From a virus: a DNA stretch of 64,000 nucleotides. The notes beneath the pieces were generated by a model. It was given only the letters and a program-made list of their open reading frames with translations. It did not search any database and had not been told where the DNA came from. Of this stretch, positions 5,101 to 54,664 are shown piece after piece (position 1 is the stretch's first letter; every line of letters starts with the position of its first letter). The position numbers were made by a program, and so were the translations under genes. The stretch covers positions 1-64,000 of IMG/VR virus record IMGVR_UViG_3300023273_000812. The stretch is one strand, 5' to 3'.

Positions 5101-7256
5101 ACATCTACAGTACCTGTAGCGATACAAGCCATAATAAGTTTACCATCAACAATAAACTCTAAGTTCTTATTAGTTTCGTCTACTACATAAGTAGTGTATC
5201 CACTAGAGGCTGTATACACAATCTCATTACTTACAAGTTGTGCGTGTATACCGCAACCTGCACCTGTTGGATCACTTAAGTCCACAAAGCCACCAGTAAC
5301 AGTAGACCCTTCAAACTCTACATCAAAATGGTCAGAACCATTAGAGATAAGATAGTAAGGACCTGTACCTGGTACAGTGTATTTAGCCAATGTTGCATCT
5401 TGACTGTCGAATGTAACAGTTACATCTTCTTCTACTGAACCTTGATAAAAGTTAGTATTAAAAGGTGTTTCTACACGACAATCAGGAAGTCTTTCTGTAC
5501 CACTTGGAAACTGTAATTCGATAGTAGCCAACCCACTGGACTTAGATCCAAATTGTGGTGTTACTAAGGCATTACTGTTTTCGTCTGTGATAGTATAAGT
5601 ACCAACACCACTTGCTCCAGCCGTATTACTAACAATAGAGTACTCTAGGTCTACTAATGTGTTGTAATAGAATGTAGCGTATACTGTGGCCCCTACAGGT
5701 ACTGCTTGTGCTAAAGTGATAGTATTGGTTTCACTATCAACCTTAGTTACTTGTACACGACCACGATTAACAGCGTCTTCTACAGAGAATCCCCAATAAG
5801 CCCAAACCAGGTCTGGTCTATTGGTTGGAAGATCGTAACGACCATTAGATACTTTGTTGTATGTATCAGAAGACAGAGGAGTATTTCTACCATTACCCGT
5901 TGTGGCTTGTAAAGGTAAAGTGAACTCTTTACGACCTTCTACTGCAGGAGAAGTTGCTGTATTTACAACGGCTGTACATTCTGCTAAGTATTGTCTAACA
6001 TCTACCAAAGAAGAGGTAACTTGTGTTCCATCGAAGAAGTTGTAACCCAAAGTGTGAACACCAGACTCAACAGTACTAGCAGTACCCCAAAGGATTAAGT
6101 CGTCCTTTAGAATAAAGTCCGCACCGGCTGTGTAATCCTGACGATCTGGTGTAATACCACATTGTGTGATTTGAGTAACACCACGATGTGCCAGATAATC
6201 AAAAGTGTCCTGCCAAGAGTTAAAGTAATACTGACAAGATACAGTATCTCCAACCTTTGGAGCGAAAGGTAAAGTAATAGCACCAGATTGTCCATCTACT
6301 GAAGTAGGGATTACTTGGATACCGTTTACTTTAACTGTTACATCCGCGGGATCTGTTGAGGTAATACCACCATTAGAACCATCTACGATAGGTCTTTGGA
6401 ATGTGTAGAACACATTATTTCTTGGAGTAGTTTGTCCTAGAGTAAGTCCTAATGTAGTATTAGCAGACCCGTTAAGGATTTCAATACTATTATCAGCACT
6501 TAATACTACAACAGTTTCTCCAAAGTTATTAACTGCAGTAGAACCACTTAAGGAAGTACTACCACTACCACCATTAATAAAAGCAGCGATTTGAGCGGCT
6601 GTCCAAGGAGCACCTGCTGCACTTGGAAGAATTGTAATGTCCAAAGTAGTTTGGTTATCTACCAAGATTTTAAGAGTGTCGTTTACACCTTGTGTGATTA
6701 CAAAAGGTTCACCTTTTGCTCCGTAAATAATAGGTGCTTGGGATGTAACTTGTTCAGACAAGTTATCCGTAATCAAAGTGTCTGTTCTATTAAAGAAGTA
6801 AGTAACTCTTACTTCGTCACCTAAACTAGGAGAAGTAGAAAGTTTTAAAATACCTTTAGAACCGTCAATAGCCAGAACTACTACGGGTTCATTATTAATA
6901 GTTACAGAAACACTACCGGTATCTTTTGCAGTAGTTCCTGAACCGTCTCCTGTTACAATAGGAAAATGTTTAACTTGAATACGATCCAAGTTACCATCAA
7001 AAGCACCTAAAGTTACATTACCAGTTTGGGAAATACTAACAACAGCACGACCTGTTTCATCTTCTTGAACAATGCGTTGGTCTACTGAAGAAGAAGAACC
7101 ACGAACAAGTTCAAGTTGATTTTGTGTTAAGATTTCAGAGCCCGTTCCTACCAATAAAGGAATACGGACATTAGAGGCCACACCTTGTAAAGGGTCCTCA
7201 AAGTTTGTTTGGGTATACACACCGGGAGGGGCGTATATAGAACCTGGGAAAGTCAT
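2106..7256 (-). CDS. Giant tail sheath protein with repeated beta-domain insertions
   Basis: The protein has 1716 residues, against roughly 400-700 in most contractile sheaths. The N-terminus (MTFPGSIYAPPGVYTQ) and the last about 290 residues (SIDAYIKAIDEVEG onward, with GRIVGFDEVARKLDAVAQ, VISVRHGLTTD and LNATLKGLVGNQIIA) have the character of contractile-phage sheaths. The intervening region is beta-rich and internally repetitive. Residues about 98-165 and 288-353 align as duplicates (PIV.G...G.T..D...V.V..N, DG..G...L...P..GD.V...Y.FN...DT). Weaker copies lie near residues 470-535 and 1330-1370. A second repeat type ends NGSAN(T/D)TLG. Such modules would decorate the outside of the sheath tube. 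Expressed from AGGAG before the ATG, ending at a strong terminator. Confidence 0.92.
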   Translation of the reverse strand: MTFPGSIYAPPGVYTQTNFEDPLQGVASNVRIPLLVGTGSEILTQNQLELVRGSSSSVDQRIVQEDETGRAVVSISQTGNVTLGAFDGNLDRIQVKHFPIVTGDGSGTTAKDTGSVSVTINNEPVVVLAIDGSKGILKLSTSPSLGDEVRVTYFFNRTDTLITDNLSEQVTSQAPIIYGAKGEPFVITQGVNDTLKILVDNQTTLDITILPSAAGAPWTAAQIAAFINGGSGSTSLSGSTAVNNFGETVVVLSADNSIEILNGSANTTLGLTLGQTTPRNNVFYTFQRPIVDGSNGGITSTDPADVTVKVNGIQVIPTSVDGQSGAITLPFAPKVGDTVSCQYYFNSWQDTFDYLAHRGVTQITQCGITPDRQDYTAGADFILKDDLILWGTASTVESGVHTLGYNFFDGTQVTSSLVDVRQYLAECTAVVNTATSPAVEGRKEFTLPLQATTGNGRNTPLSSDTYNKVSNGRYDLPTNRPDLVWAYWGFSVEDAVNRGRVQVTKVDSETNTITLAQAVPVGATVYATFYYNTLVDLEYSIVSNTAGASGVGTYTITDENSNALVTPQFGSKSSGLATIELQFPSGTERLPDCRVETPFNTNFYQGSVEEDVTVTFDSQDATLAKYTVPGTGPYYLISNGSDHFDVEFEGSTVTGGFVDLSDPTGAGCGIHAQLVSNEIVYTASSGYTTYVVDETNKNLEFIVDGKLIMACIATGTVDVGYYALAINQATLGIFALASAGGLNTLTIPASEMPCDTDNLYAGWQLVCTGGTGVSTTVRTVTASVNGVLTLDGGTFDATSVFHLYNPDAAPSITGVTQFLAPTVISASEFDQIELNYTGSVKGSVPISVTIPASTYGSVSDLVSAIQTAVNTAVGVAGLSCIITVEADTSGRLVFSLIPDHTDTDGGFLEFVTNGTPARDFAVLAGFDTDSAQGGQAKLVNGKIARVFSLTGASGQKRYDRLILRNRLVPGKSGSMDGQYVQDQAFIQVLGGSGNNNCGLTSNEIGVSGIRGTVMEPTISSHIGLEGGQDGSGQPLVTFYGPSSTNPQSNIFKFTFEGVPVTIEFTDGTGGAITTSADVPLGPIGTANTVLNQIQAAMVAQGLASGLVMQEGVGIRFRGASSSSDASITIGNGSANDTLGFNTGEQVFRTVVEVETLVSALLAHDQASIALHLIDWADGGASAYFTKVGIAKTIRDSVGGEFLYLQSLGTSGVGTSSSIAIVEAAVDSVTRPGTGLGVTGGEGNVGEPSIDGFYVTSSDPIDGSGSANTSVLNSGNGQDGNVGQTYRDLVTGLTFTVLPRPGGASYPTGESFTFKLRKVVTTDSNLPINTLPGVETIVSNTLGVNVGDSAVVTTYASGGNEPSVGDIYYVSYNYRKQDFSSQIYTKQATVEQAFGEKTPSNPVSLGAYLAFLNGAVIIAIKQVEKDEDINNDGTPDSASIDAYIKAIDEVEGSLPGGIYPNYIVPMRGDSLPMFQYLARHCDIQSSIRYRAERTAIVGVSAGTQPRQVGNIAEAVMRSRLRIMYPDIVTLSLTAADGSVKSYLVDGTYVAAAWAGNRASPTIDVATPWTRGRIVGFDEVARKLDAVAQNQVAVRGVTVIGQDRQVISVRHGLTTDMTNTLSRTPSVITIADEVQRQARATLDRFIGIKFLPGITSQIEGQLNATLKGLVGNQIIATFIPASAKVSETDATAIEVEAYYQPVFPLIYIVITFNVRSSL

Positions 7257-8094: not shown

Positions 8095-8892
8095 TCACTC
8101 ATCCAACAAGGTATAACTAAAAGTTTCTCTTCCTGTTTTCTCTACTTGTAGATGTGCCAGTTTTAACATCTTCTCAAAGTCGGCTAATCTTTTAAAGACC
8201 TGACAACCTGCAGACCACCTATTAACATTCTCACTTTCTCCATTAGCAGAAGACCTATGTATGTTAATACCGAAATATCCACTAGCAATAGTTTTTTCAC
8301 TACGGTCTAGAATACTATCTTTGTCACCATCCCTGTAAATCTTAACCTTACCAGACCTTTGACATAACGCTTCATACTTACCTTGATGTAGACCGAGTTT
8401 CCAAGTGTCTAAGTATTGTCCTTCTACTAAGATAGCCGTACCCACAACATAACTAGGATTCTCTAACCAGTATGTACCAGGATCTGTTGTACCTGGCCAA
8501 AAGTAAGAGTGCCATCCACCATCTGCGTAATAGTAACAACCTAATGTGTCGTCAAACTTATTAGACTGTGTTTCTTTAGAACGGATTCCAAATAACCAAA
8601 GTCTATATGGTTCATCCCATATCTCGTACCCTAACTTACGAGCCTTATCTAATATAGGGGGTAAAGGTGCTGTGGGTTCGTACTTAGTAGGGACTTGTAA
8701 TAAACCAGTCCAAGTATCTTCTCCTACAATGCCGTCTGATAATAAACCCTTATCTTGTTGAAACTTACACACAATTTTGTGTGTAGTAGGTCCGAAGTCC
8801 CCATCTACAGATAAAGTATAACCATGTTGTTTTAATAGTTTTTGTAGTTTTCTTACATCGGCACCTTTGTCGCCTTTCTTTAAAATGTCCAT
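8095..8892 (-). CDS. Peptidoglycan-binding lysin with L,D-transpeptidase-like C-terminal motif
   Basis: A 265-residue protein. Residues 3-65 form a PG_binding_1 domain (KKGDKGADVRKLQKLLKQHG, VDGDFGPTTHKIVCKFQ). The C-terminal part contains H212 and S227-A-G-C230 in an arrangement (NIHRSS...RWSAGCQVF) reminiscent of the HxnS(H/x)GC active site of YkuD L,D-transpeptidase-fold enzymes. Phage proteins with this layout are generally endolysins or tail-associated lysins. No signal peptide or membrane segment is seen, and no holin is apparent nearby. The gene is embedded in a tail-gene cluster, so a virion-associated lysin is as likely as a free endolysin. Ribosome site AGGAG is well placed. Confidence 0.75.
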   Translation of the reverse strand: MDILKKGDKGADVRKLQKLLKQHGYTLSVDGDFGPTTHKIVCKFQQDKGLLSDGIVGEDTWTGLLQVPTKYEPTAPLPPILDKARKLGYEIWDEPYRLWLFGIRSKETQSNKFDDTLGCYYYADGGWHSYFWPGTTDPGTYWLENPSYVVGTAILVEGQYLDTWKLGLHQGKYEALCQRSGKVKIYRDGDKDSILDRSEKTIASGYFGINIHRSSANGESENVNRWSAGCQVFKRLADFEKMLKLAHLQVEKTGRETFSYTLLDE

Positions 8893-8903
8893 TAAAAAAA
8901 CTC

Positions 8904-10127
8904 CTATTTAATAATCTCGAAATCTTTCGTTCTATTAGAGTAGAACGGGTCTCTTAACTCTACTAACTTTAAACTCTCTACTAAAGTTAAAGTTGTAGGG
9001 TTTCCTGTTTCTATTAACTCATCATCTGTTAAAGCATTGGTAGCTACTTCAGATACAAGTTGGTGGGGTACAACACGAGATAAGTATCTCGGCATTGGTT
9101 TAAACATAAACCAATCTGTCATAACTGTTACAGACACGCTTGCGGTGTAAAAATAATCATCCCCATTATCATCATATGTTTCTTCACCTTCTCCACCTAA
9201 AGAAACATCTGTAATAACAATACCTTCCTTGCCTAATCGATCCCTTAATGTTGTGTACAAGTACATTACAGTGCGATCCGCTATCTCACCTTGTGAGTAA
9301 AGGTCTCTAGCCATTATGTCAAAGTCTAAACTAAGTTCCCAGTTACCGCCGTACTGTAAAAAGACATCTTCCCTTTGTCTAGTTACAAGTACACACATTA
9401 CATCTCCAGCAAAAGCTCTTCTTCCAAAGGCTAGTATAACACCTGGTATGGCCGTATTGTTAGTACCATTTTCTTCTAATACATAAGGACCTGTAGATTG
9501 TCCTGCGTATCTATAGTCAACACTTAAAGACAAGTTGTTAGGTAAGGCTTTTAATAAAGTAATAGTACCTGTCTCTGGGTCTGCTGTATAGTTAACACCC
9601 TCGTAGTAAGGAAAATTACCGGGTACTTCGAATACTCGTAAGGAACCTGCATGAAAACCACCAGCACCTACTTCGAAAGTATAGTTGTTAATCCTTAAAG
9701 GTATTTCATTAACTATCTCTAATAAAGGGTCTACATAGAACACAAGTTTATCTCTAGGTTCCCCTTTAACTAAAACTTGCTCTTCGACTACCTCTATATA
9801 ATAGATACCTGGTGGTGTTGGAAACTTACTATTGTTTTGTTGAATGGCTACACTGTCTTCTTTAATCCATTCAATACTAGTACCTTGTTTACCATAGTAA
9901 CCAGTAAGGGTACAGTAAGAAGACACTGTACCCATAAAATGGTCTGCGGCTAACGATGTAGCGGACGCTGAGTTACTTTTAAGAATAATAGCCTGTTGAG
10001 GTCTTTCTTCGAAAGAGAACTTACCTTGAATAACAAGATTATCTTTATACTGGGGTTCCGTAGACCAATAGTTACGTAACTCCATTATAAATCTTCTTTT
10101 AATACTCTCCGTTAAGTTTGCAAACAT
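8904..10127 (-). CDS. Tail or neck structural protein (unassigned)
   Basis: A 407-residue beta-rich protein ending 11 bases before the lysin gene. A segment near residues 175-210 (YTADPETGTITLLKALP, then SVDYRYAG) resembles the repeated module of the sheath (DG..G...L...P..GD.V...Y.F), suggesting a virion location. The rest (DVMCVLVTRQREDVFLQYGG, LSLDFDIMARDLYSQGE, DRTVMYLYTTLRDRL) has the look of a head-tail connector or tail-completion protein, but I cannot assign it to a named family. The start is uncertain. ATG at 10127 lies inside a 23-bp repeat with no good Shine-Dalgarno; an internal ATG 14 codons later (MELRNYW) is an alternative. Confidence 0.75.
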   Translation of the reverse strand: MFANLTESIKRRFIMELRNYWSTEPQYKDNLVIQGKFSFEERPQQAIILKSNSASATSLAADHFMGTVSSYCTLTGYYGKQGTSIEWIKEDSVAIQQNNSKFPTPPGIYYIEVVEEQVLVKGEPRDKLVFYVDPLLEIVNEIPLRINNYTFEVGAGGFHAGSLRVFEVPGNFPYYEGVNYTADPETGTITLLKALPNNLSLSVDYRYAGQSTGPYVLEENGTNNTAIPGVILAFGRRAFAGDVMCVLVTRQREDVFLQYGGNWELSLDFDIMARDLYSQGEIADRTVMYLYTTLRDRLGKEGIVITDVSLGGEGEETYDDNGDDYFYTASVSVTVMTDWFMFKPMPRYLSRVVPHQLVSEVATNALTDDELIETGNPTTLTLVESLKLVELRDPFYSNRTKDFEIIK

Positions 10128-10138
10128 ACAGGGTCATC
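10116..10138. repeat. 23-bp direct repeat, copy 1
   Basis: GTTTGCAAACATACAGGGTC and three more bases recur with one mismatch at 10770-10792. This copy holds the ATG of the structural gene at 8904-10127. Confidence 0.8.
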
Positions 10139-10164: not shown

Positions 10165-10737
10165 TTACAGTCGATAGTTTGTTGGAACTTTTACCTTTAG
10201 GATTCCTTTGGTTTCATTATCTATATCCCAACCAAGACCTCCCCTTCGTTCAACATCAAATGCTCTCGACCAGTCTTCCATATCCTCTAGAAAAGTATTA
10301 TAAAAGTTATCACGGTCACGACCAAGATTGTACAATGTCCCAGAAGATGTAGTGATAGTGTATTCGAACTGCACATAAGGCATTCTATTCATTTCTATAA
10401 TTTCGAAATCACTTACAACCTGTAATTCACGACGGTTTCGGCCGCGGCTATAAGACCTAGCTAATGTTGTAACCTTGTCCCGAACCAAGTCTAACCACTG
10501 TTGGGGTGTTCCAGCATCACTTAACCTTTCAGTTTCCGCTTGTAAAAATGTCTTATACCCTTCTAAGTGTCCTAGTAAGTTATCCTTTTCTCTTCCAGTC
10601 TGACCACGCATATAGTGCTTCAAAGTTTCTAAGGCTGAAAGTGTTTCCCTTATATTTATTAATTGTTCCTGTTTAGAAGCCAGTTTCTTTAATTGTTGAA
10701 CTTCTTTAAGAAGTTGTTTTGCTGTTAATTTTCTCAT
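10165..10737 (-). CDS. Leader-bearing protein (family B), 190 residues
   Basis: A good AGGAG precedes the ATG at 10737. Residues 1-22 (RKLTAKQLLKEVQQLKKLAS) are an amphipathic helix nearly identical in protein and DNA to the start of the next gene (10793-11455). It is related to those at 19659, 50024 and 51604; I call this set family B. The body is unrelated at sight to the neighbour: a helical region to about residue 100, then a beta-rich region (MPYVQFEYTITTSSGTLYN), then WSRAFDVERRGGLGWDIDN. No catalytic motif is recognised. The sharp boundary between leader and body implies the leader is a transferable targeting signal, for example for packaging into the capsid. That is inference. Confidence 0.8.
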   Translation of the reverse strand: MRKLTAKQLLKEVQQLKKLASKQEQLINIRETLSALETLKHYMRGQTGREKDNLLGHLEGYKTFLQAETERLSDAGTPQQWLDLVRDKVTTLARSYSRGRNRRELQVVSDFEIIEMNRMPYVQFEYTITTSSGTLYNLGRDRDNFYNTFLEDMEDWSRAFDVERRGGLGWDIDNETKGILKVKVPTNYRL

Positions 10738-10769
10738 GTGTTAACTCCTAGTTAACCTATTAAATTAAT

Positions 10770-10792
10770 GTTTGCAAACATACATGGTCATC
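10770..10792. repeat. 23-bp direct repeat, copy 2
   Basis: Matches 10116-10138 with one mismatch. Here it gives only a ten-codon remnant (MFAN then stop at once), a decayed copy of the start of the structural gene. This marks insertion of the gene at 10165-10737 by recombination. Confidence 0.75.
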
Positions 10793-11455
10793 CTAATATG
10801 CGTCTTTATTGTCTAGGTAATTCATTAGAATTTTTGGTGCTTCTTTATCAAACACAGATTTAAAATGTGTAAAACACTTATCCATCGACTCATCTATATT
10901 TGGAGTAAGAATATTTTTCTCAACATCGTAAGGGTCTTGAAACAACCCGTAAAAATCACATTCGCTCTTATTGGTCCCATCTCTTGCGATCACATAATTG
11001 AACAAAATGAAATCACGACCCACGACTAACTTCATCTCTACATGTCCCCAAGCACCTTTACCCCCTATATTAGATTTTATTTTCCAATCTAAACCTGTTT
11101 TCTTAGCCCAATTTTCCATATAAGACAGGATTTTACCATAGGTGTCTTCAATGGCTTGTTTAGCGTCTTGGTCACATTCAGAACCTTGTTTCCACCAATC
11201 TATACAAACCTTTTGTTTTTGTACTCGAATAGGCTGTGTTCTTGTATAGGTGACATAGGCTATGTCACCTTGAACATTAATGTCTTCGATATAATGTTGT
11301 GAGACATGCTGAGCAGCCCAAGACTCTACTTGACCCAACAGGTCTTCTTCGTCTTCGTAAACGAAAACATAATCTTCTAACCAGTCTTTAGAGGCCAGTT
11401 TCTTTAATTGTTGAACTTCAAGAAGAAGTTGTTTTGCTGTCAGTTTTTTATTCAT
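10793..11455 (-). CDS. Leader-bearing protein (family B), 220 residues
   Basis: AAGGTG precedes the ATG at 11455. The leader (KLTAKQLLLEVQQLKKLASK) matches the next gene (10165-10737) almost base for base over about 60 bases (11387-11449 against 10671-10733), after which the proteins differ. The body reads as a single alpha/beta domain (DINVQGDIAYVTYTRTQPIR, IEDTYGKILSYMENWAKKTG, WGHVEMKLVVGRDFILFNYV). Cysteines at scattered positions show no metal-site spacing. The architecture, leader plus globular domain of about 190 residues, resembles the proteins at 50024 and 51604. Function unknown. Confidence 0.8.
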   Translation of the reverse strand: MNKKLTAKQLLLEVQQLKKLASKDWLEDYVFVYEDEEDLLGQVESWAAQHVSQHYIEDINVQGDIAYVTYTRTQPIRVQKQKVCIDWWKQGSECDQDAKQAIEDTYGKILSYMENWAKKTGLDWKIKSNIGGKGAWGHVEMKLVVGRDFILFNYVIARDGTNKSECDFYGLFQDPYDVEKNILTPNIDESMDKCFTHFKSVFDKEAPKILMNYLDNKDAY

Positions 11456-11528
11456 AACACACCTTTTTGGAATTGTTATTTTAACATAAATGTTTTTTGT
11501 ATAAGGATTCTATTGAATGTATCTCTAG

Positions 11529-12974
11529 TTAATCTATTAAATAAATGTAAGCACTGGAGTCTGTCTCGATAATACCATCGTCAAACATAATCTCTAAAAC
11601 CTGACTTACTTGTTTAGCGTCTACTTTAAACTTACGCATTACTTGTTTTGTTAAGTCTTCAATGAAAATAGCATCTTTACGACTTAGTAAGTCTTGAATG
11701 TACTTTTCCATCTTAGACTGTAAGTTTGCAAACTTCCACTTATTACGATCCATCATGTCCTTAGGTGAAAAGGTATTACGTTTAGGAAGAAACTTGTCAA
11801 AGTCATATCGTCCGTCTCCTTCTCGGGCTTGTAACCAAGCCAAAACACCTCTAGCAGAACCATGTGTACCAAACCTTTTAACAATGGAGAATCTATTATC
11901 TACCATGTACATTGTGTAACGATCAATGTACTTGTTATTTTCAGAATCTGCGTTTCTTAAAGCAAGGAATGTGTATTCAGGAGAGATTCTTTTAGTGAAA
12001 CTAGATTGATCTCTGGACCATCCCGCTACACCTACGGCAGAGTGTGTAGGTATACCTTTTCTAGGAACACTGTCACCTTGTTTGTAGATAGGATACCCAT
12101 AACCATTAAAGTCCGCTTTAAAGTTTCTACGGGCTTGTCTAGACTGGTTCATTTTAACAGCCCCTTGTAAATCCGGTTGTTCGGATTCTACAACAAACCT
12201 GTTTAAAGTAGACACATCACTACCACCGGGTAACTCTAAAATCTCGTCTGGAGTTAAAGGACTAGCTTCGTACTCTTTCTTTTCCTGTGATAGTGGGCTT
12301 TGGTGGCCTCTATCTTCTTTTAAAGTATTTTTAAAAGTAGTAGGGTCATTAGAAACAGCGTTGGACTCTGCAAACTGTGAAACCTCTACTTTACGAGGAT
12401 CTTTGTAAAAGATTTCGGCGGCGTCTATATCTTCCGAAACTCTTCTGTTTAATTTGGCTGTTCTAGGTTCTACAATCTGTTGTAACAAGTATAAGTTACT
12501 TTCGTGGTTGGAAGCCAATGTGATTAATAAATCCTCTAGACCTATTGTCATTAAACCAAAACCTTTTAAGTCCTCAATACTTTGTTCGATTAACTGTAAA
12601 AAGAACCTTTCAATGTGTAAGCCTCTTTTAATAGGATCTTGTACCTGAGAGAAACCTTGTAGGTATGAAAACATCAAAGGTGCTTGGTAGGCTAGTTTAA
12701 GTTGGCTAGTTCCCATAACCCCACCAATCTTTTCCGCCAAACTATCAATCTCTTCGTTTGTAGAGTTGTACAGTCTTTCGAAAAGTAAGTGGTCTTGGAA
12801 AAAGTGTGATCCGTATACAGTCCAATGGGAAGTCTGGTAAGAAATAGACATTGCTCTTAAACAGGCTAAAACAGGTCCTAGGATCTGTCCACCTACGGCC
12901 ACCATTTCTAAGTCGTTAGTCACATACCCATTTTTAGTAAAGTTTTCGTATTGTTGTTCCATAGTATCTTCCAT
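11529..12974 (-). CDS. Dps/ferritin-like domain fused to a large C-terminal region
   Basis: A 481-residue protein. Residues about 22-190 match the Dps family: HW (H50), GSHFFQDH (H62), EEIDSLAEKIGG (D77, E81). The spacings 12, 15 and 4 between H50, H62, D77 and E81 are exactly those of the Dps ferroxidase site, so iron oxidation and storage is plausible. Dps proteins are about 160-180 residues; here about 290 residues follow. That part holds a low-complexity linker (200-250), a basic central stretch and a C-terminal winged-helix-like segment (DLTKQVMRKFKVDAKQVSQV, IIETDSSAYIYL). No signal peptide. The start could instead be the ATG at 12962, four codons in. The gene is divergent from 13150 and upstream of the leader-bearing genes. 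Confidence 0.82.
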   Translation of the reverse strand: MEDTMEQQYENFTKNGYVTNDLEMVAVGGQILGPVLACLRAMSISYQTSHWTVYGSHFFQDHLLFERLYNSTNEEIDSLAEKIGGVMGTSQLKLAYQAPLMFSYLQGFSQVQDPIKRGLHIERFFLQLIEQSIEDLKGFGLMTIGLEDLLITLASNHESNLYLLQQIVEPRTAKLNRRVSEDIDAAEIFYKDPRKVEVSQFAESNAVSNDPTTFKNTLKEDRGHQSPLSQEKKEYEASPLTPDEILELPGGSDVSTLNRFVVESEQPDLQGAVKMNQSRQARRNFKADFNGYGYPIYKQGDSVPRKGIPTHSAVGVAGWSRDQSSFTKRISPEYTFLALRNADSENNKYIDRYTMYMVDNRFSIVKRFGTHGSARGVLAWLQAREGDGRYDFDKFLPKRNTFSPKDMMDRNKWKFANLQSKMEKYIQDLLSRKDAIFIEDLTKQVMRKFKVDAKQVSQVLEIMFDDGIIETDSSAYIYLID

Positions 12975-14336: not shown

Positions 14337-14984
14337 TTACCACCCATAAAAGGACAATACATCTTCTAGGACTTCCTTATCACCCCAAAAGTTCTTCTTT
14401 AATTGTTTAATAGCCTCTGGGTCTTGGAATAGTTTGTCACCATAGTCTTTAAAGGACTTATCAATAGTCTTAAAGTGTTTTTCAATTAAAGATGTAAGTT
14501 GTTTAGTGTTGTTGAATATAGTTAAAGGGATGAAAAAGTTTATAGGTAAGTATACTTTTTTGCTAACAAAAGAGTCTTGTAATGATAACGGACCATCATC
14601 CATAATTTCAGCTTCGTATTGTTTATTTCGTTTTAGGTATTCTCTTGGGATTACACTATACACATTAAAGTACTTATTGTGTACAACATTACAATAGAGG
14701 ACAAGTTCATCGTCCTCTATTGACACAGAAACCTCAAATACACAAGCTAGTTGTAAGTGTCTGGTGTTTACTACCGTAAACACATTACCTTCGTCTTGTT
14801 CCATAACACTAAAATTACCAGACCAAGGTAAGTTTTCAAAGTCGTTTATACCATTAACGATGTCTATTAGTGGTTGTAGTTGGGGTAATAAGTCTAAGGA
14901 ATCTGCTAACAATTCCGCTTGTTGTATTAAAGAAGGATCGTTTCTTAATACTAATTCTTGTAGTTTTTCAATTTCTGAGGACAT
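14337..14984 (-). CDS. Family A paralogue with QAELLADSL motif
   Basis: A 215-residue protein with GGAG before the ATG. The N-terminus (LQELVLRNDPSLIQQAELLADSLDLL) is the clearest family A motif and recalls short helical-repeat (LRR-variant-like) segments. A beta-rich middle follows (VFEVSVSIEDDELVLYCNVV). The C-terminus is helical (SLIEKHFKTIDKSFKDYGDK) and resembles the C-terminal segment of the proteins at 17849, 18418 and 19017. No enzymatic motif. It is the last gene of the large minus-strand block and its stop touches the plus-strand SWIM gene. Confidence 0.8.
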   Translation of the reverse strand: MSSEIEKLQELVLRNDPSLIQQAELLADSLDLLPQLQPLIDIVNGINDFENLPWSGNFSVMEQDEGNVFTVVNTRHLQLACVFEVSVSIEDDELVLYCNVVHNKYFNVYSVIPREYLKRNKQYEAEIMDDGPLSLQDSFVSKKVYLPINFFIPLTIFNNTKQLTSLIEKHFKTIDKSFKDYGDKLFQDPEAIKQLKKNFWGDKEVLEDVLSFYGW

Positions 14985-17848: not shown

Positions 17849-18388
17849 TTATCTTGTCCCAGGTATTAGTTTAAGGAACTTAGGGTCGTCCATTAGTTTC
17901 TTTAAAATAGGCTCTAACCTTGTTAAGTTTTTCTCAAAAGTAGTATCAATAAAGTCCAACATATCGTCGTAAGACATCTCTAATACATCTGTGGATACTA
18001 CGGGTACTTTTCTGTTTAGGATTTGAGTTTGTACAAACTCAAAGGCCTTATTATTACCTCTCCAAGATCCAGCAGAAGAAGGATTGATTGTATACATAAC
18101 ACCATTACCTGTAAGTTTTACACCTGTATGTAACTCTCCATCCCTAATGATAGCGGTTGGCTCTAAAGACACATATAAACCAAAGTTGGTAGACATCCAT
18201 TCCATATAGGTAGATTCTAACTCTGTATTTTTAATTTCTATTAACTGTGTAAGTCTGTAATTGTATACCGCGGAATTAAAAACATCCCTTTCCTGTTTTG
18301 TTAAAGGTAAAGAATCCGCTAACACAATTGCTTGTGTTACTAAGGAATCGTCTTCTTTTTCTACTAAATCCAATAACTTATGTAACAT
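17849..18388 (-). CDS. Family A paralogue
   Basis: A 179-residue protein; GGGAG precedes the ATG. N-terminal helix pair LLDLVEKEDDSLVTQAIVLADSL is the family A motif. A beta-rich centre (YVSLEPTAIIRDGELHTGVK) and a helical C-terminus (DDMLDFIDTTFEKNLTRLEP) follow. It is the third of three tandem paralogues (19017, 18418, 17849 in transcription order). No active-site motif seen. Tandem duplication with strong divergence suggests a function that benefits from variety, such as host-interaction or internal virion proteins. This is speculative. Confidence 0.8.
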   Translation of the reverse strand: MLHKLLDLVEKEDDSLVTQAIVLADSLPLTKQERDVFNSAVYNYRLTQLIEIKNTELESTYMEWMSTNFGLYVSLEPTAIIRDGELHTGVKLTGNGVMYTINPSSAGSWRGNNKAFEFVQTQILNRKVPVVSTDVLEMSYDDMLDFIDTTFEKNLTRLEPILKKLMDDPKFLKLIPGTR

Positions 18389-18417: not shown

Positions 18418-19014
18418 CTATTTACACAAAGGTGTAGCCTTATTTAATCGTGTCAGTTTAGGGTCCATTGCTAAGAACTTGGTTTTAAGGTGAACCTTAG
18501 CAGATATGTCATTCCAATAGTGTTCCACTACATCTTCCACTTTATCCCAAGTATCGTCTACTGTGGTATCTATAGTTAGTTCCTTAAAGACACCTTTAAG
18601 TTCTTTCTCTGCATACTTAAATGCCTTGTTACCGATAGAGCTTTGATAGTACCAGTTACCGTTCTTAGGGCAAAAGTAGATCATGTCGTCAAACCTTATA
18701 CCCACACGAATAATGTTTGGGGCAATACTTACAGGCTCGATTTGGAAACTGAATGAGTAAGAGTCACTTTTACTCCCATCAGCAAAACCTAAACCTGGAT
18801 TTTGTATACTGCGACCAACACTAACATAGTCATTAGAACCCCAACCATTAAAGAATATGTTGGGTAGCACTAAGGCAATCTCTGTTTCCAACGCATAAAT
18901 CTCTTGGGCATTAAGACCTACTAAGTACATAAGTTCTTTTACTTGTTCAATGTAAGCGAGGTTACCTGTTTCAACAAGTCTCATTAACTTTATTGCGTCT
19001 TCTGATAATCTCAT
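18418..19014 (-). CDS. Family A paralogue
   Basis: A 198-residue protein starting two bases after the upstream stop, with AGGA inside the preceding stop region, so translation is probably coupled. The N-terminus (LSEDAIKLMRLVETGN...EQVKELMYLVGLNAQE) aligns with that of 19017 (LSEDAQKLKDLITNGN). The C-terminal helical segment (WDKVEDVVEHYWNDISAK) matches those of 17849 and 19017. Beta-rich middle region. Function unknown. Confidence 0.8.
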   Translation of the reverse strand: MRLSEDAIKLMRLVETGNLAYIEQVKELMYLVGLNAQEIYALETEIALVLPNIFFNGWGSNDYVSVGRSIQNPGLGFADGSKSDSYSFSFQIEPVSIAPNIIRVGIRFDDMIYFCPKNGNWYYQSSIGNKAFKYAEKELKGVFKELTIDTTVDDTWDKVEDVVEHYWNDISAKVHLKTKFLAMDPKLTRLNKATPLCK

Positions 19015-19016
19015 TC

Positions 19017-19589
19017 TTAAAATCCTGCGTAGGATCTAAAAGCCGATTGATTAACCCATCTTTGGGCTTCCCCTGCTAAACGGTTAATACGATTACGAAA
19101 GTATCTTTCTGCATACTTAACAAAGTCTTCGTATTCTGTATCCCACTTAACTTCAAACAAACCAGGTCCTAACTTTTTGTTAAGAACCTTAATAGCAAAA
19201 TCATCGGCTCTTTTATTGACATTAGTTTCATTGTTAGAACGAAAAGGTCCTACAGTAGATCCTCCCTCAAATACAGGCTGAACCTTAATTAAAGGCATGT
19301 TTGGATTAGGGTAGAAACCACCAACATAAACAGGAAACATATATTCATACTCATCGTCGTCTGTTCGGATTACAAGAACATCTTGTAAGTCATACCGACC
19401 ATAGTCGTCCCAAATCATTTCAGTGAAAGCTATCTTTTTCCAATCTACGATAAGTTCCTTAATGTACTGTTCTTCATCTCTAGGCAACTGTATGTCTTCT
19501 AATAAAAGAACAGCCTGATTTACAAACGTTTCATTACCATTAGTAATTAAGTCTTTAAGTTTTTGAGCGTCTTCTGATAAGTTACGCAT
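19017..19589 (-). CDS. Family A paralogue
   Basis: A 190-residue protein with GGAG before the ATG. The N-terminus (LSEDAQKLKDLITNGN, FVNQAVLLLEDIQL) is family A; the C-terminal helix (EYEDFVKYAERYFRNRINRL) matches its neighbours. The 5' flank (terminator hairpin, TTATTATGGAGAAACT, ATG) is an almost exact copy of that of the next upstream gene (19659-20084) although the proteins differ. This points to cassette-like duplication. Function unknown. Confidence 0.8.
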   Translation of the reverse strand: MRNLSEDAQKLKDLITNGNETFVNQAVLLLEDIQLPRDEEQYIKELIVDWKKIAFTEMIWDDYGRYDLQDVLVIRTDDDEYEYMFPVYVGGFYPNPNMPLIKVQPVFEGGSTVGPFRSNNETNVNKRADDFAIKVLNKKLGPGLFEVKWDTEYEDFVKYAERYFRNRINRLAGEAQRWVNQSAFRSYAGF

Positions 19590-48036: not shown

Positions 48037-49638
48037 ATGAATAGACAACAAAAAGAAAACCTTAAAGGTCTACTAATGAGTGGAGACAAGGGTTCCATTA
48101 ATCAAGCACTATCTTTGATGGATGCTTTAGATATGGCTACACAAGAAAAGGATAGTGAACTTATAAGAGAAGTTACTAATTACCTTTATGAGGAGGGTAG
48201 TGTAGACAACGATTACTTCGAACGCTCCCAAACTTTAAGAAAAGAAATGGTTCGTTTTAAAGGTGGTGTGGTTAAGGATTTAGTGGACTTTGTAGACGAA
48301 GTTGTACATGGTTGTTGGAAGGGTCCAAAAGGTAACAAACCTACAGGTTCCGCAATGCATAGTGAAAAGACTGTTTTTAATACAGATGAACTGGATTTTC
48401 TTTATTCTGTACAAGGTGATTATAGTGCTGAAAGTCGTAACTTCGGAACGGCTTATAATTTTGTGAATTGTTTAAAACAATCCTTAAAACAGTATGGTCT
48501 AATACAAAAGGATGATCAAGTATACGCCCGCTATGATAGGGAAGACTTCATGTTTGAAGTAAGCTTAGACTTAAAGCAGATTAACTTTAATAAACTAAAA
48601 TTAGCAAGTACAGGGAGTGATACTATGCGAAAACTAGCTAGAACGGAACGTAAAAAAGGTATTGAGGTTTGGGTTTCCCGTAGAACAACAAACTTTCCAA
48701 AAAATGTAAACGATAAAAAGTATTGGCAAGGATACTTAGAGATGTTAGCAGACGTTCATGAATGGGATGAAGACGTTTATGAGCAGATGAAGATAGAAAC
48801 CGACGAGGACGTGCTTTTAGAGAATATAAAACTAACCGATATAAACGACCTTGGAGACAATGCTATATTGACTTTCGATGTGGATGTTTCGTTTAATGAT
48901 TCTTATTATAAACACGCAAGGAGTAATACTATGCGAAAATTAACTAAGAGACAAGCAAGTCGTAAACTGGATGAGTTGTACGGTCAACTCACTAACAATA
49001 AACAAGCCTATCTAACTAGAAGAGCAAAAACTGAAACCGTAAAGTTCACTATGGACTTTAATGAGATGTTTTCGTATGCCCAATTACGAGGTCATGATAT
49101 AACTGATAGAGGTGTTATTGAGGGATTATTAATCCCTGAGTGGCAGGTAGAGGAAAAGGCTGAAGACTTTGTTATGGGTAATTATGGAGACGTGGATTGG
49201 GAAATCTACACTACCAAAGTTAAAGGAAGACCTAGAATTGACTTACATGCTGTAAGTCAAGGATATGAAGATTGGGAGATGGATGATAGCCACTATGGTG
49301 GTACCGTTTCTGGAACACTGGAGGTAACCCTTCATATTTCTGACGATAATTCTTCAAGACGTGCTCGTTTCTCTGAAGGACCCGAAGGTACAAAAGAGTT
49401 CGAAAAGTGGAAAGCCGAACAACCCGAAGAGTTCCAAGAAGAATGGGATGCTAATACTGAAAAGTACAAAGATAAGTTTAAACAAGCCAAGTTAACTCGT
49501 AGACAAGCAAGTCGTGCTTTAGATCGTTTACATGCACAAGTTGTAGGTACTAAGCGTACAGCAAGTTCTAGAATGACTAAACGTCAGGCCTCTAGAAAGT
49601 TAGACTTGTTACACAAAAAACTTACTACTAGACGATAA
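48037..49638 (+). CDS. Concatenated multi-unit protein (family A unit plus family B-like units)
   Basis: A 533-residue frame that looks like several genes fused in frame. Unit 1 (1-196) starts with a family A motif (GLLMSGDKGSINQALSLMDA). Unit 2 begins at internal Met 197 (48625: MRKLARTERKKG) and unit 3 at Met 299 (48931: MRKLTKRQASRKLDELY). Both internal ATGs carry Shine-Dalgarno-like sequences in frame (AGGGAGTGATACT, AAGGAGTAATACT). The end of the protein holds two more copies of the RQASR leader (LTRRQASRALDRLHAQ, MTKRQASRKLDLLHK). Either one polyprotein or internal starts giving nested products. Function unknown. Confidence 0.78.
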   Translation: MNRQQKENLKGLLMSGDKGSINQALSLMDALDMATQEKDSELIREVTNYLYEEGSVDNDYFERSQTLRKEMVRFKGGVVKDLVDFVDEVVHGCWKGPKGNKPTGSAMHSEKTVFNTDELDFLYSVQGDYSAESRNFGTAYNFVNCLKQSLKQYGLIQKDDQVYARYDREDFMFEVSLDLKQINFNKLKLASTGSDTMRKLARTERKKGIEVWVSRRTTNFPKNVNDKKYWQGYLEMLADVHEWDEDVYEQMKIETDEDVLLENIKLTDINDLGDNAILTFDVDVSFNDSYYKHARSNTMRKLTKRQASRKLDELYGQLTNNKQAYLTRRAKTETVKFTMDFNEMFSYAQLRGHDITDRGVIEGLLIPEWQVEEKAEDFVMGNYGDVDWEIYTTKVKGRPRIDLHAVSQGYEDWEMDDSHYGGTVSGTLEVTLHISDDNSSRRARFSEGPEGTKEFEKWKAEQPEEFQEEWDANTEKYKDKFKQAKLTRRQASRALDRLHAQVVGTKRTASSRMTKRQASRKLDLLHKKLTTRR

Positions 49639-50023: not shown

Positions 50024-50746
50024 ATGAAAAAACAATCAAAAGCAAATCTAACACCTAAAAGACAAATAATGGCATCTAACCAAAAGGAAAATAAAATGTC
50101 AAGAAAAATAACAGCCAAAGAACTTTTAAGAGAAGTCAGAACTTTGAAGAAACAAGCAGGTGAGAATCCTTGCGCCCCAAGACTAATTGAATACTCCGAA
50201 GATAGTGAGTTAAAGTCTCTGATTGAGCGAAGCATAGGACCAGATGGTTTGATGTATGGTTGGGGACACTTTACCTTGAAAAATATAGAGGTAGTGGATG
50301 GGATCGCGTACTTTGATGGGAACATTTCGGGTGAAGTCCCTGTTATGAAAGTGACCCCTTGGTTTGAAACTGCTAACCACCCACAAGTACAAAAAGCATT
50401 CAAAGAACTTGAGAAAGAACTGAAGTCTTTTGTAGCGAAAAACGGTCTTTCCGATTTGAGGGTAGTCGCTAGTAACGACGATTATAACAGAAATGTAGAC
50501 TGGATTACATCGGTTTCTATCGTAGATAGCATAACGAATCGAAAGGTGTCCTTTCTTATAGGAGGGTGGGACACTGATTCAGCCGTTGTAGAGTCATGGT
50601 TGGGAGACCATTGGTCAAAGAAGTTCTCCGGAAATATAGATGCAGATGTTGCTATGGCAGTTTCAAATATGAGGAAGTTCATCAATAAAGACCTACTCCA
50701 GCAAGTATTAGAATCCAGAGCAAAGTTCGAAGCCAGAAAAAGATAA
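50024..50746 (+). CDS. Leader-bearing protein (family B) with stacked leaders
   Basis: A 240-residue frame. From the ATG at 50024 the first 14 residues (KQSKANLTPKRQ) match those of the next gene. Then comes a segment that elsewhere is a ribosome-site region (IMASNQKENK), and then the family B leader at the internal ATG at 50096 (SRKITAKELLREV). AAAAGGAAAAT before 50096 makes that the likelier ancestral start. The body (residues about 50-240) is an alpha/beta domain (GHFTLKNIEVVDGIAYFDGN, AFKELEKELKSFVAKNGLSD) resembling that at 10793. Bases 50066-50133 recur perfectly at 51574-51641. Confidence 0.78.
   Translation: MKKQSKANLTPKRQIMASNQKENKMSRKITAKELLREVRTLKKQAGENPCAPRLIEYSEDSELKSLIERSIGPDGLMYGWGHFTLKNIEVVDGIAYFDGNISGEVPVMKVTPWFETANHPQVQKAFKELEKELKSFVAKNGLSDLRVVASNDDYNRNVDWITSVSIVDSITNRKVSFLIGGWDTDSAVVESWLGDHWSKKFSGNIDADVAMAVSNMRKFINKDLLQQVLESRAKFEARKR
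50030..50065 (+). repeat. 36-bp leader repeat, copy 1
   Basis: Encodes KQSKANLTPKRQ; matches 50757-50792 with one mismatch. Confidence 0.85.
50066..50133 (+). repeat. 68-bp perfect direct repeat, copy 1
   Basis: Spans a ribosome site, an ATG and the first 12 leader codons; identical to 51574-51641. A partial copy of its 5' part lies at about 51253-51296. Confidence 0.9.
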
Positions 50747-50750
50747 TCTT

Positions 50751-51587
50751 ATGCGAAAACAATCTAAAGCAAATCTAACACCTAAAAGACAACGAACTCA
50801 ATACTCATGTATGGCTACCTCAATGAGTATGTGTTTACAGGCCTTAGACTATCCACACGCTAATGAGGATGAAGTCAATAAGGTAATGGGTGCTTTACCG
50901 ATGAGAGGGGCCGCTTGGGAACAAGCTTTGGCATGTGCTCAGCATTATGGGTGTAGAGCCACATTAACAATGCCTTCTACAGTTAAGCAATTAAAAGAAT
51001 GGACTGACCGAGGTGTTCCTGTAATGATTGCTTGGAACCCAGAGGGTCGTGATTGGTCTCATGCTTCTGTAGTCTTCGATGTAGATGAAGACTTAAATGT
51101 ATATGTTGCTGACCCTAACATTCCAGACCCAGATGAAACTGTAAGGGTTGTACCTAAAACAGAGTTCTATTCAAAGTGGTACGAGAAGTGGCCGAATTAT
51201 CTAGTTCGTCGCCCTGCCTGCGCTATCGAGAGAGAAATAACTCCGGATGGGAGACAAATAATGGCATCTAAAAAGGAGAATAAAATGTCAAGAAATCCAG
51301 AAATAAGAAAAATTGCTCGAGAAATCGAATCTATTAAAGGTCAATTACAAGGCAAAACAGCAGGGACTTGGGATCTTGGAACAGAACTTTCTGCGTTGAA
51401 GAAAAACTCTGGAATCCATTTCAAGTTATCAGACAAGTTAATTGGGGAAGCCGTGGGAGAAGTGCAATTATACGAAGATTTGCGTAAAGGCTACAGCCTT
51501 TTAGATCAAGTAAAAGCGATGTTGCAACAAACAATAGAAGAAATCGAATCCATGCAGAGAAAAATTAAGTCTGATAATGGCATCTAA
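50751..51587 (+). CDS. C39-like cysteine peptidase with leader, fused to a helical unit
   Basis: A 278-residue frame. Residues 1-14 (KQSKANLTPKRQ) repeat the start of the previous gene. Residues 15-160 resemble a papain-like C39/bacteriocin-processing peptidase: Q-Y-S-C-M-A-T-S (catalytic Cys in RTQYSCMATSMSMCLQ) and WSHASVVFDVDEDLNVYVAD (His, Asp). After about residue 168 the sequence runs through a former ribosome site (IMASKKENK) into MSRNPEIRKIAREIESIKG (ATG at 51285, with AAAGGAG), a coiled-coil unit. The second unit may also be translated alone. The peptidase could process leaders of neighbouring proteins; inference only. Confidence 0.75.
   Translation: MRKQSKANLTPKRQRTQYSCMATSMSMCLQALDYPHANEDEVNKVMGALPMRGAAWEQALACAQHYGCRATLTMPSTVKQLKEWTDRGVPVMIAWNPEGRDWSHASVVFDVDEDLNVYVADPNIPDPDETVRVVPKTEFYSKWYEKWPNYLVRRPACAIEREITPDGRQIMASKKENKMSRNPEIRKIAREIESIKGQLQGKTAGTWDLGTELSALKKNSGIHFKLSDKLIGEAVGEVQLYEDLRKGYSLLDQVKAMLQQTIEEIESMQRKIKSDNGI
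50757..50792 (+). repeat. 36-bp leader repeat, copy 2
   Basis: Encodes KQSKANLTPKRQ at the start of the C39-like peptidase; matches 50030-50065 with one mismatch. Confidence 0.85.
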
Positions 51588-51641
51588 CCAAAAGGAAAAT
51601 AAAATGTCAAGAAAAATAACAGCCAAAGAACTTTTAAGAGA
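51574..51641 (+). repeat. 68-bp perfect direct repeat, copy 2
   Basis: Identical to 50066-50133. Here the first bases form the stop codon region of the preceding gene, and the rest is the ribosome site and leader of the gene at 51604. Confidence 0.9.
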
Positions 51642-52317
51642 GGTTCGTGCGATTAAAAAATTAGCCGCGGGTACAAGTATTCCATCGGTTTTTCCATCTA
51701 TTACAAGACAATTAAACATTCCAGAAGGTGTACAGTTCCTTCCTGATGGTAGTGGTGAGTTTGAAATTATTACAGAAAACGGCGAACATATTTACGCTGT
51801 TTTAGGAGATAGTGGTTACGAAATTAGTGGAAAAGGTGCTAAGAAACCTTTTATTAAAGCAGACATTACTTTCGATGAAGAGGGTGAAGGTGTTACAAAC
51901 GATCCTAAATCCATTGTGAGTGCTATTCAAACTATGTTAAACTGGTACGACAATGCTTTGTTAACCTCTATTAAAGACGACGAACTGGAAATGAGAAAAC
52001 TTTTCTCTATGGCTTTTAAAGGTAGTAGAACCTTTGATTATGATAGTTGGTATAAAAAAGGTAAGATTTATATTATTACAGGTAAGTCTTACGGTATGCC
52101 ACAGCAAGTTGTTGGTGGCGGCGGTATAGAGTTTCAGATCTATAGAGAGGGGGATAATAAGGCCAGTGTAAACGCTTTATACCCAGATAAAAGACGACAT
52201 ATGGGAACTTATATTGTTAACAATGTCCAATGGACTGCTAATGGTGTTCCATTAATTGACCCACGAGAATTTAAAAAGATTTTCTCTAAGGTTAGCGCTA
52301 AAACTAAAAAATGGTAA
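51604..52317 (+). CDS. Leader-bearing protein (family B)
   Basis: A 237-residue protein from the ATG at 51604 (AAGGAAAATAA upstream); the frame is open nine codons further, overlapping the previous gene. The leader SRKITAKELLREVRAIKKLA is the same as at 50096 in its first 12 residues and then diverges. The body (GSGEFEIITENGEHIYAVLG, AIQTMLNWYDNALLTSIKDD, KGKIYIITGKSYGMPQQVVG) is alpha/beta with a glycine-rich loop and no recognised motif. Ends with a basic tail (KVSAKTKKW). Confidence 0.8.
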   Translation: MSRKITAKELLREVRAIKKLAAGTSIPSVFPSITRQLNIPEGVQFLPDGSGEFEIITENGEHIYAVLGDSGYEISGKGAKKPFIKADITFDEEGEGVTNDPKSIVSAIQTMLNWYDNALLTSIKDDELEMRKLFSMAFKGSRTFDYDSWYKKGKIYIITGKSYGMPQQVVGGGGIEFQIYREGDNKASVNALYPDKRRHMGTYIVNNVQWTANGVPLIDPREFKKIFSKVSAKTKKW

Positions 52318-52345: not shown

Positions 52346-53050
52346 ATGCCAGCACAAGGAATATGTCTAAGAGTAACACATACAGGGGCTGTAAAAGGAC
52401 CTCTGTTAGTTACTGATATACACGATGGTATAGATGCCAATGGTCGTGTTCAGGCTAATAAACCTGGTGCTGTGTATATTCCTTTTAATGGTGTTGTGGA
52501 CTTAATCTATACTTCACAAGTAGCACACTCTTTTGAAGTAGGAGCTATTCGTGCTTGGATTAATACTGGATACTTAACGGCTGTGTTTGTATTTGGTACT
52601 AGTTTCCACAACACTATTACTCAAACCTCTTCTATTATTGTACAAGATGAAGGGGTACCTGTAGAAACTGAAACCACCACACTTAACTTTATTGGTGGTA
52701 ATGTTACAGCCACACCAGTAGGTGGTGGTGTTGTAGATGTAGTCGTTGTAGGTGGTGGCGCCAGTACTTATTGGAATGTGCTTACTACACTTGTAGATAG
52801 GGTGGCTACCAACTCAGAGTTCATTCTTATTGATAGTGACCCAGTTACAATAACTTTACCTGTTCCTAATGTAAGTGATCACATTGCAGTAAAAGTGATA
52901 ACACCCACCATTACAAATATACAAGTTAAGACTCATGGGGCGGGTGTTTTAATAGATGGTACTGATTACTCCGTTACAGGTCTTCCTTTAACCACACAAT
53001 GGGAACAAGTTAACTTTATTAGTAATGGTACAAATTGGTTTATATGGTAG
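52346..53050 (+). CDS. Fibre-like virion protein
   Basis: A 234-residue beta-rich protein with AGGA before the ATG. The central motif (IIVQDEGVPVETETTTLNFI then GGNVTATPVGGGVVDVVVVG) is a linker often found in phage fibre or decoration proteins. The C-terminal domain (SDPVTITLPVPNVSDHIAVK, WEQVNFISNGTNWFIW) is of the type seen at fibre ends. Probably a head or tail fibre subunit. Start of the structural block. Confidence 0.78.
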   Translation: MPAQGICLRVTHTGAVKGPLLVTDIHDGIDANGRVQANKPGAVYIPFNGVVDLIYTSQVAHSFEVGAIRAWINTGYLTAVFVFGTSFHNTITQTSSIIVQDEGVPVETETTTLNFIGGNVTATPVGGGVVDVVVVGGGASTYWNVLTTLVDRVATNSEFILIDSDPVTITLPVPNVSDHIAVKVITPTITNIQVKTHGAGVLIDGTDYSVTGLPLTTQWEQVNFISNGTNWFIW

Positions 53051-53056
53051 GTTTAT

Positions 53057-54664
53057 ATGTCTTACAGTCCACAAGTTAGAAATACAATAGATGAGGCGAA
53101 TAGTAGTATTGTACCTTTATTGGCCGGTCAAACTTTTACTGGAGGCTGGACAGATATAACACTATGGAATGGTATTAGTGTTTTCCTTGATGGTAAGTCC
53201 TTATCCACAGCACCTGGTACATTACAAATGCAATTCTCACAGGATTGTATTACTGTTAATGAAAGTATCCAAATTAACATACAAGATATAGACACTGCTA
53301 ACTCTAGAACACTAGCGCCTATATCTAGATACTTTCGAGTTGTATATACCAATGGTGGTGTTGATCAAACCGTATTTAACTTACAGACTATCTATCATAC
53401 ATCACAAGTAAGTTCTGTTTCTAGATTAAACCAAGACCTTGTAGGAAACGAAGATGTTATTAATGTTCGTTCTGTGTCTACTGGACAACAACCTGATGGC
53501 GACTTTGTAAACGCAAAAGCTGACGGTACTGCTTTTGTAAGTGTTGTACCATTAGGTGTTGGTGGTGTGTATGATAGTGGTTGGGTAGACACAGATGGTT
53601 TTGTATCTGTAGAGTTGTTTATAGCCACTGATCAAGTATCTTCCTCACAAGGTATTCAAATCCTGTTTACGGATGATGTGCAAGGGGCTGCTACAGTAAG
53701 AGCCATTGAAACTTATACTTATTCACAAGACGAAGTAGATAGAGGATTTCTATCTATTAACTTTGGAACTAGGTTAGATGGGTTTAGAGTTATCTATACT
53801 AATAACTCTGTAGCGCAAACAAGTTTCTTTTTAGAGTGTGACTTAAGAACCAATACCATTCCGTTTAGAACTAGTAACATCGGTGCTATTGTAACAACAG
53901 ATTTTCAAGTAGAAGTCGCTCTTGGTAATATACCTGGTTACAGTAATGGTACTAAGTTTGGCTCTATTAGATTGATTGACGCCGCAGACGCACAACCTTT
54001 AACTATATGGCGCTTGGCGGATGATGGTAGAACACCTTTACGAGTGGCTAGAAAGACTTTTCAGACTGTTGCGAGTAACGCTTGGGTGGCTAGTAATAAT
54101 GCTTTAGACGCTGGTAAACAGATTACAGTTGAACTTAATGATAGTAACAACAATTTTGTAACTCATACACTTACTTTAAATGGTGGGGATGGTAGAATAC
54201 CAGTATCTACTGGTATTAGTGCTTTAGATTGTAATGTGGCTTTTCTAAGTGGTGATACCCAAACATTAAGTGGTGATGTGTATGTTACCAATGCTAATAA
54301 CTTTACGAATGGTGTTCCTAACTTAGGTAGTGCGGTTCTTGCTTTCATATCACAAGCAGATGGTAGAACACAACAATCTGTATACAGAGTACCTAGTGGG
54401 TATACAATGATTATTCGTAATGTGTATTCTACTATTACAGCGGGTACCTCTAATGGTTCTGTGCAAGTCACATTAAGAATTAAACCTGATGGTGGTTCTT
54501 GGTATGTGGTAAGACCTTATGCTATTACAACAGCCGTAGCTTTAGATAGAGAAGAAATAATTACTTTAAGTGAAAACAGTCTTGTAGAGTTTACTGTTTC
54601 GGACATAGGTGGTAATGATACCAATACTTTAGCATTCTTTAATTATGAATTAATTGCTAACTAA
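53057..54664 (+). CDS. Structural protein with internal duplication
   Basis: A 535-residue beta-rich protein, six bases after the previous stop. Residues about 20-120 and 170-265 are duplicates: (S/G)GW.D, then F(R)V(V/I)YTN..V.QT.F.L (YFRVVYTNGGVDQTVFNLQT against GFRVIYTNNSVAQTSFFLEC). The C-terminal part (VYRVPSGYTMIIRNVYSTIT, LRIKPDGGSWYVVRPYAITT) is a further beta domain. Pattern typical of phage fibre or decoration proteins. Its position before terminase suggests a head-associated location. Confidence 0.8.
   Translation: MSYSPQVRNTIDEANSSIVPLLAGQTFTGGWTDITLWNGISVFLDGKSLSTAPGTLQMQFSQDCITVNESIQINIQDIDTANSRTLAPISRYFRVVYTNGGVDQTVFNLQTIYHTSQVSSVSRLNQDLVGNEDVINVRSVSTGQQPDGDFVNAKADGTAFVSVVPLGVGGVYDSGWVDTDGFVSVELFIATDQVSSSQGIQILFTDDVQGAATVRAIETYTYSQDEVDRGFLSINFGTRLDGFRVIYTNNSVAQTSFFLECDLRTNTIPFRTSNIGAIVTTDFQVEVALGNIPGYSNGTKFGSIRLIDAADAQPLTIWRLADDGRTPLRVARKTFQTVASNAWVASNNALDAGKQITVELNDSNNNFVTHTLTLNGGDGRIPVSTGISALDCNVAFLSGDTQTLSGDVYVTNANNFTNGVPNLGSAVLAFISQADGRTQQSVYRVPSGYTMIIRNVYSTITAGTSNGSVQVTLRIKPDGGSWYVVRPYAITTAVALDREEIITLSENSLVEFTVSDIGGNDTNTLAFFNYELIAN

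Follow-up and report, generated by a model that had tools for sequence, protein, structure and literature searches.

A transferable N-terminal leader on differing proteins of an uncultured phage-G-like huge phage

Six proteins of a huge-phage record carry a common leader (type A, consensus KLTAKxLLxEVxxLKKLAS) on differing bodies, and on sequence grounds this leader is established as a transferable N-terminal module. By analogy with the CTS of the T4 internal proteins, it is probably a capsid-targeting propeptide that would be packaged together with its cargo and removed by the head maturation protease. The window (the whole stretch analyzed, 64,000 nucleotides) is part of a 101,749-base IMG/VR record, and coordinates outside it are marked as record positions. 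As the record probably represents part of a larger genome, all leader counts are lower limits. The first-pass annotation had recognized a transferable module from two adjacent genes, a proposal now borne out by six copies on differing bodies, by discordance between leader and body, and by the exchange of leaders between phages on homologous bodies; what it did not include was the origin of the pair by tandem duplication and the genome-wide spread of the leader.

Two of the six genes lie side by side on the minus strand:

10165-10737, minus strand: leader gene 1 (190 aa), with a body without family match
10672-10737, minus strand: type A leader of gene 10165-10737, MRKLTAKQLLKEVQQLKKLASK
10793-11455, minus strand: leader gene 2 (220 aa)
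11387-11455, minus strand: type A leader of gene 10793-11455, MNKKLTAKQLLLEVQQLKKLASK

A 61 nt repeat (10672-10732 and 11387-11447, 90% identical, spacing 715) is found at the start of these genes, and in both it encodes KLTAKQLL(K/L)EVQQLKKLASK. Codons are identical at 16 of the 18 shared leader residues, where 8.1 would be expected from codon usage, so the near identity of the two gene starts described earlier is real, with the correction that the identical part begins at codon 3-4 and the first residues differ (MRK and MNKK). A pattern derived from the leader had 0.00 expected matches in shuffled windows, and its matches at the DNA level were exactly 10165 and 10793. The amphipathic character first noted is borne out: the leader is a basic helix, about 22 residues long, with hydrophobic moments of 0.56 in 10165 (p=0.004 against shuffles) and 0.42 in 10793 (p=0.054). 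The downstream proteins, previously called unrelated at sight, could not be aligned beyond the level of shuffles, since the relatedness implied by a local score of 43 (shuffled mean 30.7, p=0.03) is not convincing; full-length homology of the bodies, raised earlier as a counter-indication, found no sequence support in this alignment and was rejected. AlphaFold models of both proteins are of low confidence (pLDDT 57 and 62) and gave no fold match at E<=0.001. Remote homology of the bodies may nevertheless exist, as a beta-beta-alpha-beta-beta core is predicted in both low-confidence models (in 10165, following helices).

According to the repeat comparison, the pair is a tandem duplication of a unit consisting of the end of a Dps-like gene, a leader gene and the start of a 407-aa gene. 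The flanking blocks are as follows:

10116-10138, minus strand: original of the start block of the 407-aa gene (repeat comparison)
10770-10792, minus strand: duplicate of the start block of the 407-aa gene downstream, GATGACCATGTATGTTTGCAAAC, left as a scar by the tandem duplication
11525-11553, minus strand: original of the 3'-end block of the Dps-like gene (repeat comparison)
10748-10776, minus strand: duplicate of the 3'-end block of the Dps-like gene upstream, joined to the 407-gene block with a junction overlap of TGCnnAC

The stretch between the two leader genes is a fusion of both flank copies. The two 407-gene blocks differ by one mismatch in 23, those of the Dps-like gene are 86% identical, and each block occurs only twice in the whole record. 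Since the flanks and the leader are 86-96% identical while everything between the leader and the 3' flank is different, one body must have been replaced; the pair thus goes back to the tandem duplication of one leader gene and the later replacement of one body, with the leader kept. In the syntenic genome G001, 11 bp separate the Dps-like gene from the 407-aa gene, and upstream of the Dps-like gene is the leader gene. The Dps-like gene (11529-12974, minus strand) encodes 481 aa, the N-terminal part of which is Dps/ferritin-like (phrog_3636, E 7e-11), and has a homolog at the same place in G001.

A leader profile, which was built from the same six proteins, recovered 10165, 10793, 50024, 51577, 97817 and 100144 (the last two in record coordinates) with E-values of 3e-14 to 5e-12, the next best being 0.1. 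Two of the genes flank a peptidase gene:

50096-50164, plus strand: type A leader of gene 50024-50746, MSRKITAKELLREVRTLKKQAGE
50751-51587, plus strand: gene for a C39/C70-like cysteine peptidase; past the domain it contains an internal leader-like segment
51604-51672, plus strand: type A leader of gene 51577-52317, MSRKITAKELLREVRAIKKLAAG

Over about 65 nt, ribosome-binding site included, genes 50024 and 51577 are identical. The 67 residues after the leader in 10793 are 48% identical to those of 97817-98317 (E 1.2e-13), and 97817 is weakly related to 50024 in the same region. The body of 10793 thus has its relative in 97817, whereas the leader DNA of 10793 most resembles that of 10165, showing that leader and body have differed in their recent histories. 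The remaining leader pairs share codons at chance level, so that conservation is on the peptide and not on the DNA. Searches of the leader proteins against Pfam and PHROGs gave nothing informative besides C39 and the leucine-rich repeats (LRR) in the body of 100144. Gene 50024 begins like the C39-like gene 50751-51587, with the peptidase domain missing between two AGACAA repeats, and looks like a copy of that gene from which the domain was deleted. Within the C39-like gene itself there is an in-frame ribosome-binding site with a start (AAGGAGAATAAAATG), as well as a leader-like segment past the peptidase domain, and the gene may yield two products. A second N-terminal module (approximately LxxLLxSGDxxxVxQAxxLAxSLxL) is present on several small proteins (1526-1999, 14337-14984, 17849-18388, 18418-19014 and 19017-19589 on the minus strand, 48037-49638 on the plus strand, and record 100144-100788), and in 100144 it directly follows the type A leader.

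Type A was seen only in this phage, in its near-twin G004 (99.8% identical over the stretches compared) and in G001. There are seven leader copies in G004, and three leader-LRR paralogs are clustered there (G004:C1:10190-13219), against only one (100144) in the record of the window; this cluster is a region that is changing fast. G001 has type A leaders MSRELTATELLKEVRELKKLASN and MSNKREIAKIAREIRELKKQAAG, plus an internal copy following its C39-like domain. No type A leader was detected near the major capsid protein of 80 relatives or across the whole contigs of 17 relatives, and cultured phages gave no match. The search across related phage genomes that was suggested at first thus traced the leader to G004 and G001. 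A bacterial origin of type A was unsupported, with no confirmed match in prokaryote genome contigs.

The type B leader (LRSKLIRLAHxNPxLRPHLLPLLKxA) occurs in relatives with an 85-91% identical major capsid protein. Proteins starting with or containing LRSKLIRLAHENPALRPHLLPLLKEA number 11 in the 485-kb phage LR745208 and 10 in G009, and type B was found at 74 loci in IMG/VR, 61 of them with distinct bodies; one such body is an ART-PolyVal ADP-ribosyltransferase (L213:2492-3340, E 3.9e-12). The type C leader (SRVAARYL) is present in G001 as MKRASSSRVASKYL. The bodies of L171 (type B) and G001 5489-5923 (type C) match at 58% over 96 aa (E 1.6e-29) in an alignment that begins just past the leader, and L218 (type B) matches L033/L034 (SASRVAARHL) and others at 40% (E 1.6e-37). 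Homologous bodies with different leaders in different phages indicate that leaders are exchangeable, and all presumably serve one purpose. In seven cases (L182, L200, L219, L222, L224, L235 and L239) the type B segment is internal to the ORF or C-terminal, and these are possibly polyproteins or C-terminal tags.

Hundreds of IMG/VR contigs, as well as LR745208, encode a major capsid protein that shares 85-93% identity with the one in the record (73021-73896); for the major capsid protein of Bacillus phage G the figure is 40%. A head maturation protease (record 69243-70631; phrog_18299, E 1.7e-12) is encoded, as are a portal, a terminase and a major head protein, and no leader gene of the record adjoins the capsid gene. 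Judging from sequence, the phage that bears the leaders is an uncultured, phage-G-like huge phage. Type A leaders end in K-x-A-[S/G/A/N] and type B leaders in K-x-A (among 64 distinct leaders, 56 have the K and 50 have the A), and such a closing motif, [KR]-x-A-[S/A/G], also occurs near the N-termini of the portal (RTAS), the protease (RTAS), a scaffold-like protein (RTAN), the product of gene 63271 (KQAG) and the major capsid protein (KLAAS). Two of these sites are:

59607-59618, plus strand: RTAS, residues 38-41 of the portal gene (59496-61190)
63343-63354, plus strand: KQAG, residues 25-28 of the head-region gene 63271-63894

Across relatives, the motif is found in 28 of 32 proteases (5.2 in shuffles) and in 23 of 35 scaffold-like proteins (5.0 in shuffles), with the surrounding residues varying in both families. 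In the protease and the scaffold-like protein it appears to lie in a disordered stretch, which would be more in keeping with a cut site than with the surface of a helix. The case for the motif rests on its conservation within single families; enrichment over all N-termini was weak (ratio 1.5) and a reversed control motif was also enriched (2.1), so a general N-terminal [KR]xA[SA] enrichment was dropped as unspecific and is not used as evidence. Separately, a basic motif, (K/R)LT(K/R)RQAxRxLxxL, is repeated in 48037-49638, in its C-terminal part, and in the scaffold-like protein (record 70585-72165), in its N-terminal part.

In T4, the CTS consists of 10 residues, is cut by gp21, and is enough to carry foreign proteins into the head; its key residues are 4 and 7 for targeting and 8 and 10 for processing, and the ADP-ribosyltransferase Alt is among the proteins packaged (PMC9026906). 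The adjacent T4 genes ipII and ipIII are 100% identical over their first 30 nt and then diverge abruptly, the same anatomy as in 10165 and 10793, with a common gene start followed by unrelated bodies. Just as IPI, IPII, IPIII and Alt have this gp21-processed N-terminus in common, a short N-terminus is common to unrelated proteins here; both phages encode a head protease, and an ADP-ribosyltransferase is tagged in T4 (Alt) as well as in relatives of the present phage (the type B ART-PolyVal body). A gapless alignment pairs the T4 CTS, MKTYQEFIAE, with the short type A leader MSTYKSLLTE (p=0.0007), which has Y, L, L and E at positions 4, 7, 8 and 10. The short leaders of the LRR proteins gave p-values of 0.0007-0.004 in this alignment, and the longer type A leaders aligned weakly (p 0.04-0.23). 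The present leader differs from the T4 CTS in its longer helix (~22 aa), in closing with KxA[S/A/G] instead of only xxE, in being attached to at least six proteins (10-11 in relatives) with some copies internal or C-terminal, and in belonging to a phage with another (phage-G-like) lineage of major capsid protein and protease. Because packaging and cleavage are deduced, and because length, closing motif and phage lineage differ, membership in the T4 CTS family is not claimed.

Similar designs are found in other phages. The first 15 residues of gp53 and gp54 of SPN3US are identical, and head-protein propeptides of the giant phages phiKZ and SPN3US are thought to direct ejection proteins into the head (PMC5694885). 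This identical start on paralogs resembles the shared leader described here, but the SPN3US propeptides mostly exceed 100 residues and have a cut motif ending in E, and gp53 and gp54 are full paralogs, whereas here a leader of ~22 aa sits on unrelated bodies. On a T4-like contig (L138:5028-9002), five close genes with differing bodies start with xxEVRxLQKIAGLLKEDEFDLSDNPL (INEVRxLQKIAGLLKEDE), apparently a CTS family of its own. These small leader genes of T4-like, Bacteroidota-type phages follow the same design, joining a similar core (xEVRxLxKxAG) to bodies that differ, but T4-type head genes are nearby and the leader tail is acidic (...KEDE) rather than the LAS of type A.

A capsid-targeting or protease-processed signal, as first proposed, is the best-supported function, given the encoded protease, the motif in common with head proteins and the likeness to ipII/ipIII; from these we infer packaging and cleavage. 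The leader helix would bind the scaffold or core of the prohead and so bring the cargo inside, the head maturation protease would cut at the closing [KR]-x-A-[S/A/G] to release it, and the freed cargo would be delivered together with the DNA. There are two candidate cut sites, between E and V of LxEV (as in T4) or between A and S of the terminal KxAS. A wider reading, which falls somewhat short of probable, is that the phage-G-like clade uses lineage-specific head tags (A, B and C) on many accessory proteins, interchangeable on homologous bodies and all dependent on one protease with a previously undescribed [KR]-x-A-[S/A/G] specificity (cut after A).

The copies inside an ORF or at the C-terminus count against a propeptide and would fit a tag that is never cleaved and that docks proteins to a tail, baseplate, neck or non-virion complex during assembly. 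The leader genes also adjoin tail-side genes (8095-10127 and 52346-54664) and not the capsid gene, but ipII and ipIII likewise lie away from the T4 capsid gene, next to e and denV, and the closing motif is common to the N-termini of the protease, scaffold-like protein, portal and major capsid protein, leaving a docking tag unlikely. Less likely still is that the leader serves mainly as a DNA-level homology anchor for swapping accessory bodies, with any peptide function secondary: two independent recent copyings (10165/10793 and 50024/51577) and the domain deletion between AGACAA repeats would agree with this, but the other leader pairs are no closer in DNA than codon usage predicts, and the B/C exchange on homologous bodies retains some leader despite differing DNA. 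That the leader of the pair is a mere residue of recent tandem duplication or recombination, with no common function, is very improbable despite the flanking scars and the 16/18 identical codons, as flanks and leader survived a complete change of bodies, four more copies in the record keep the protein sequence with synonymous sites at chance (i.e., selection on the peptide), and relatives keep the same design with other leaders. A double-glycine leader (ending in GG, GA, GS or AG with LSxxELxxIxGG spacing) was considered because the leader genes have a C39-like peptidase gene in their midst, and was rejected, the ends being KKLAS, KKQAG, KKLAAG, KKVAS and KKVAN without that spacing.

Most proteins of huge phages cannot be assigned a function. 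If the leaders are head-targeting propeptides, they would pinpoint unknown proteins that travel in the virion and are injected upon infection, among them peptidase-like, ADP-ribosyltransferase and LRR proteins, and would supply a rule for cleavage that can be tested in a protease lineage not yet studied in such detail. They would also indicate a route by which new cargo is acquired, i.e., a tagged gene is duplicated, the tag retained and the body swapped. Most worth testing is the wider pattern in phage-G-like huge phages, where several leaders, specific to lineages and interchangeable, have one closing motif in common; should the clade-wide reading be true, a search for tags would predict the packaged and injected proteins of each phage from its sequence alone.
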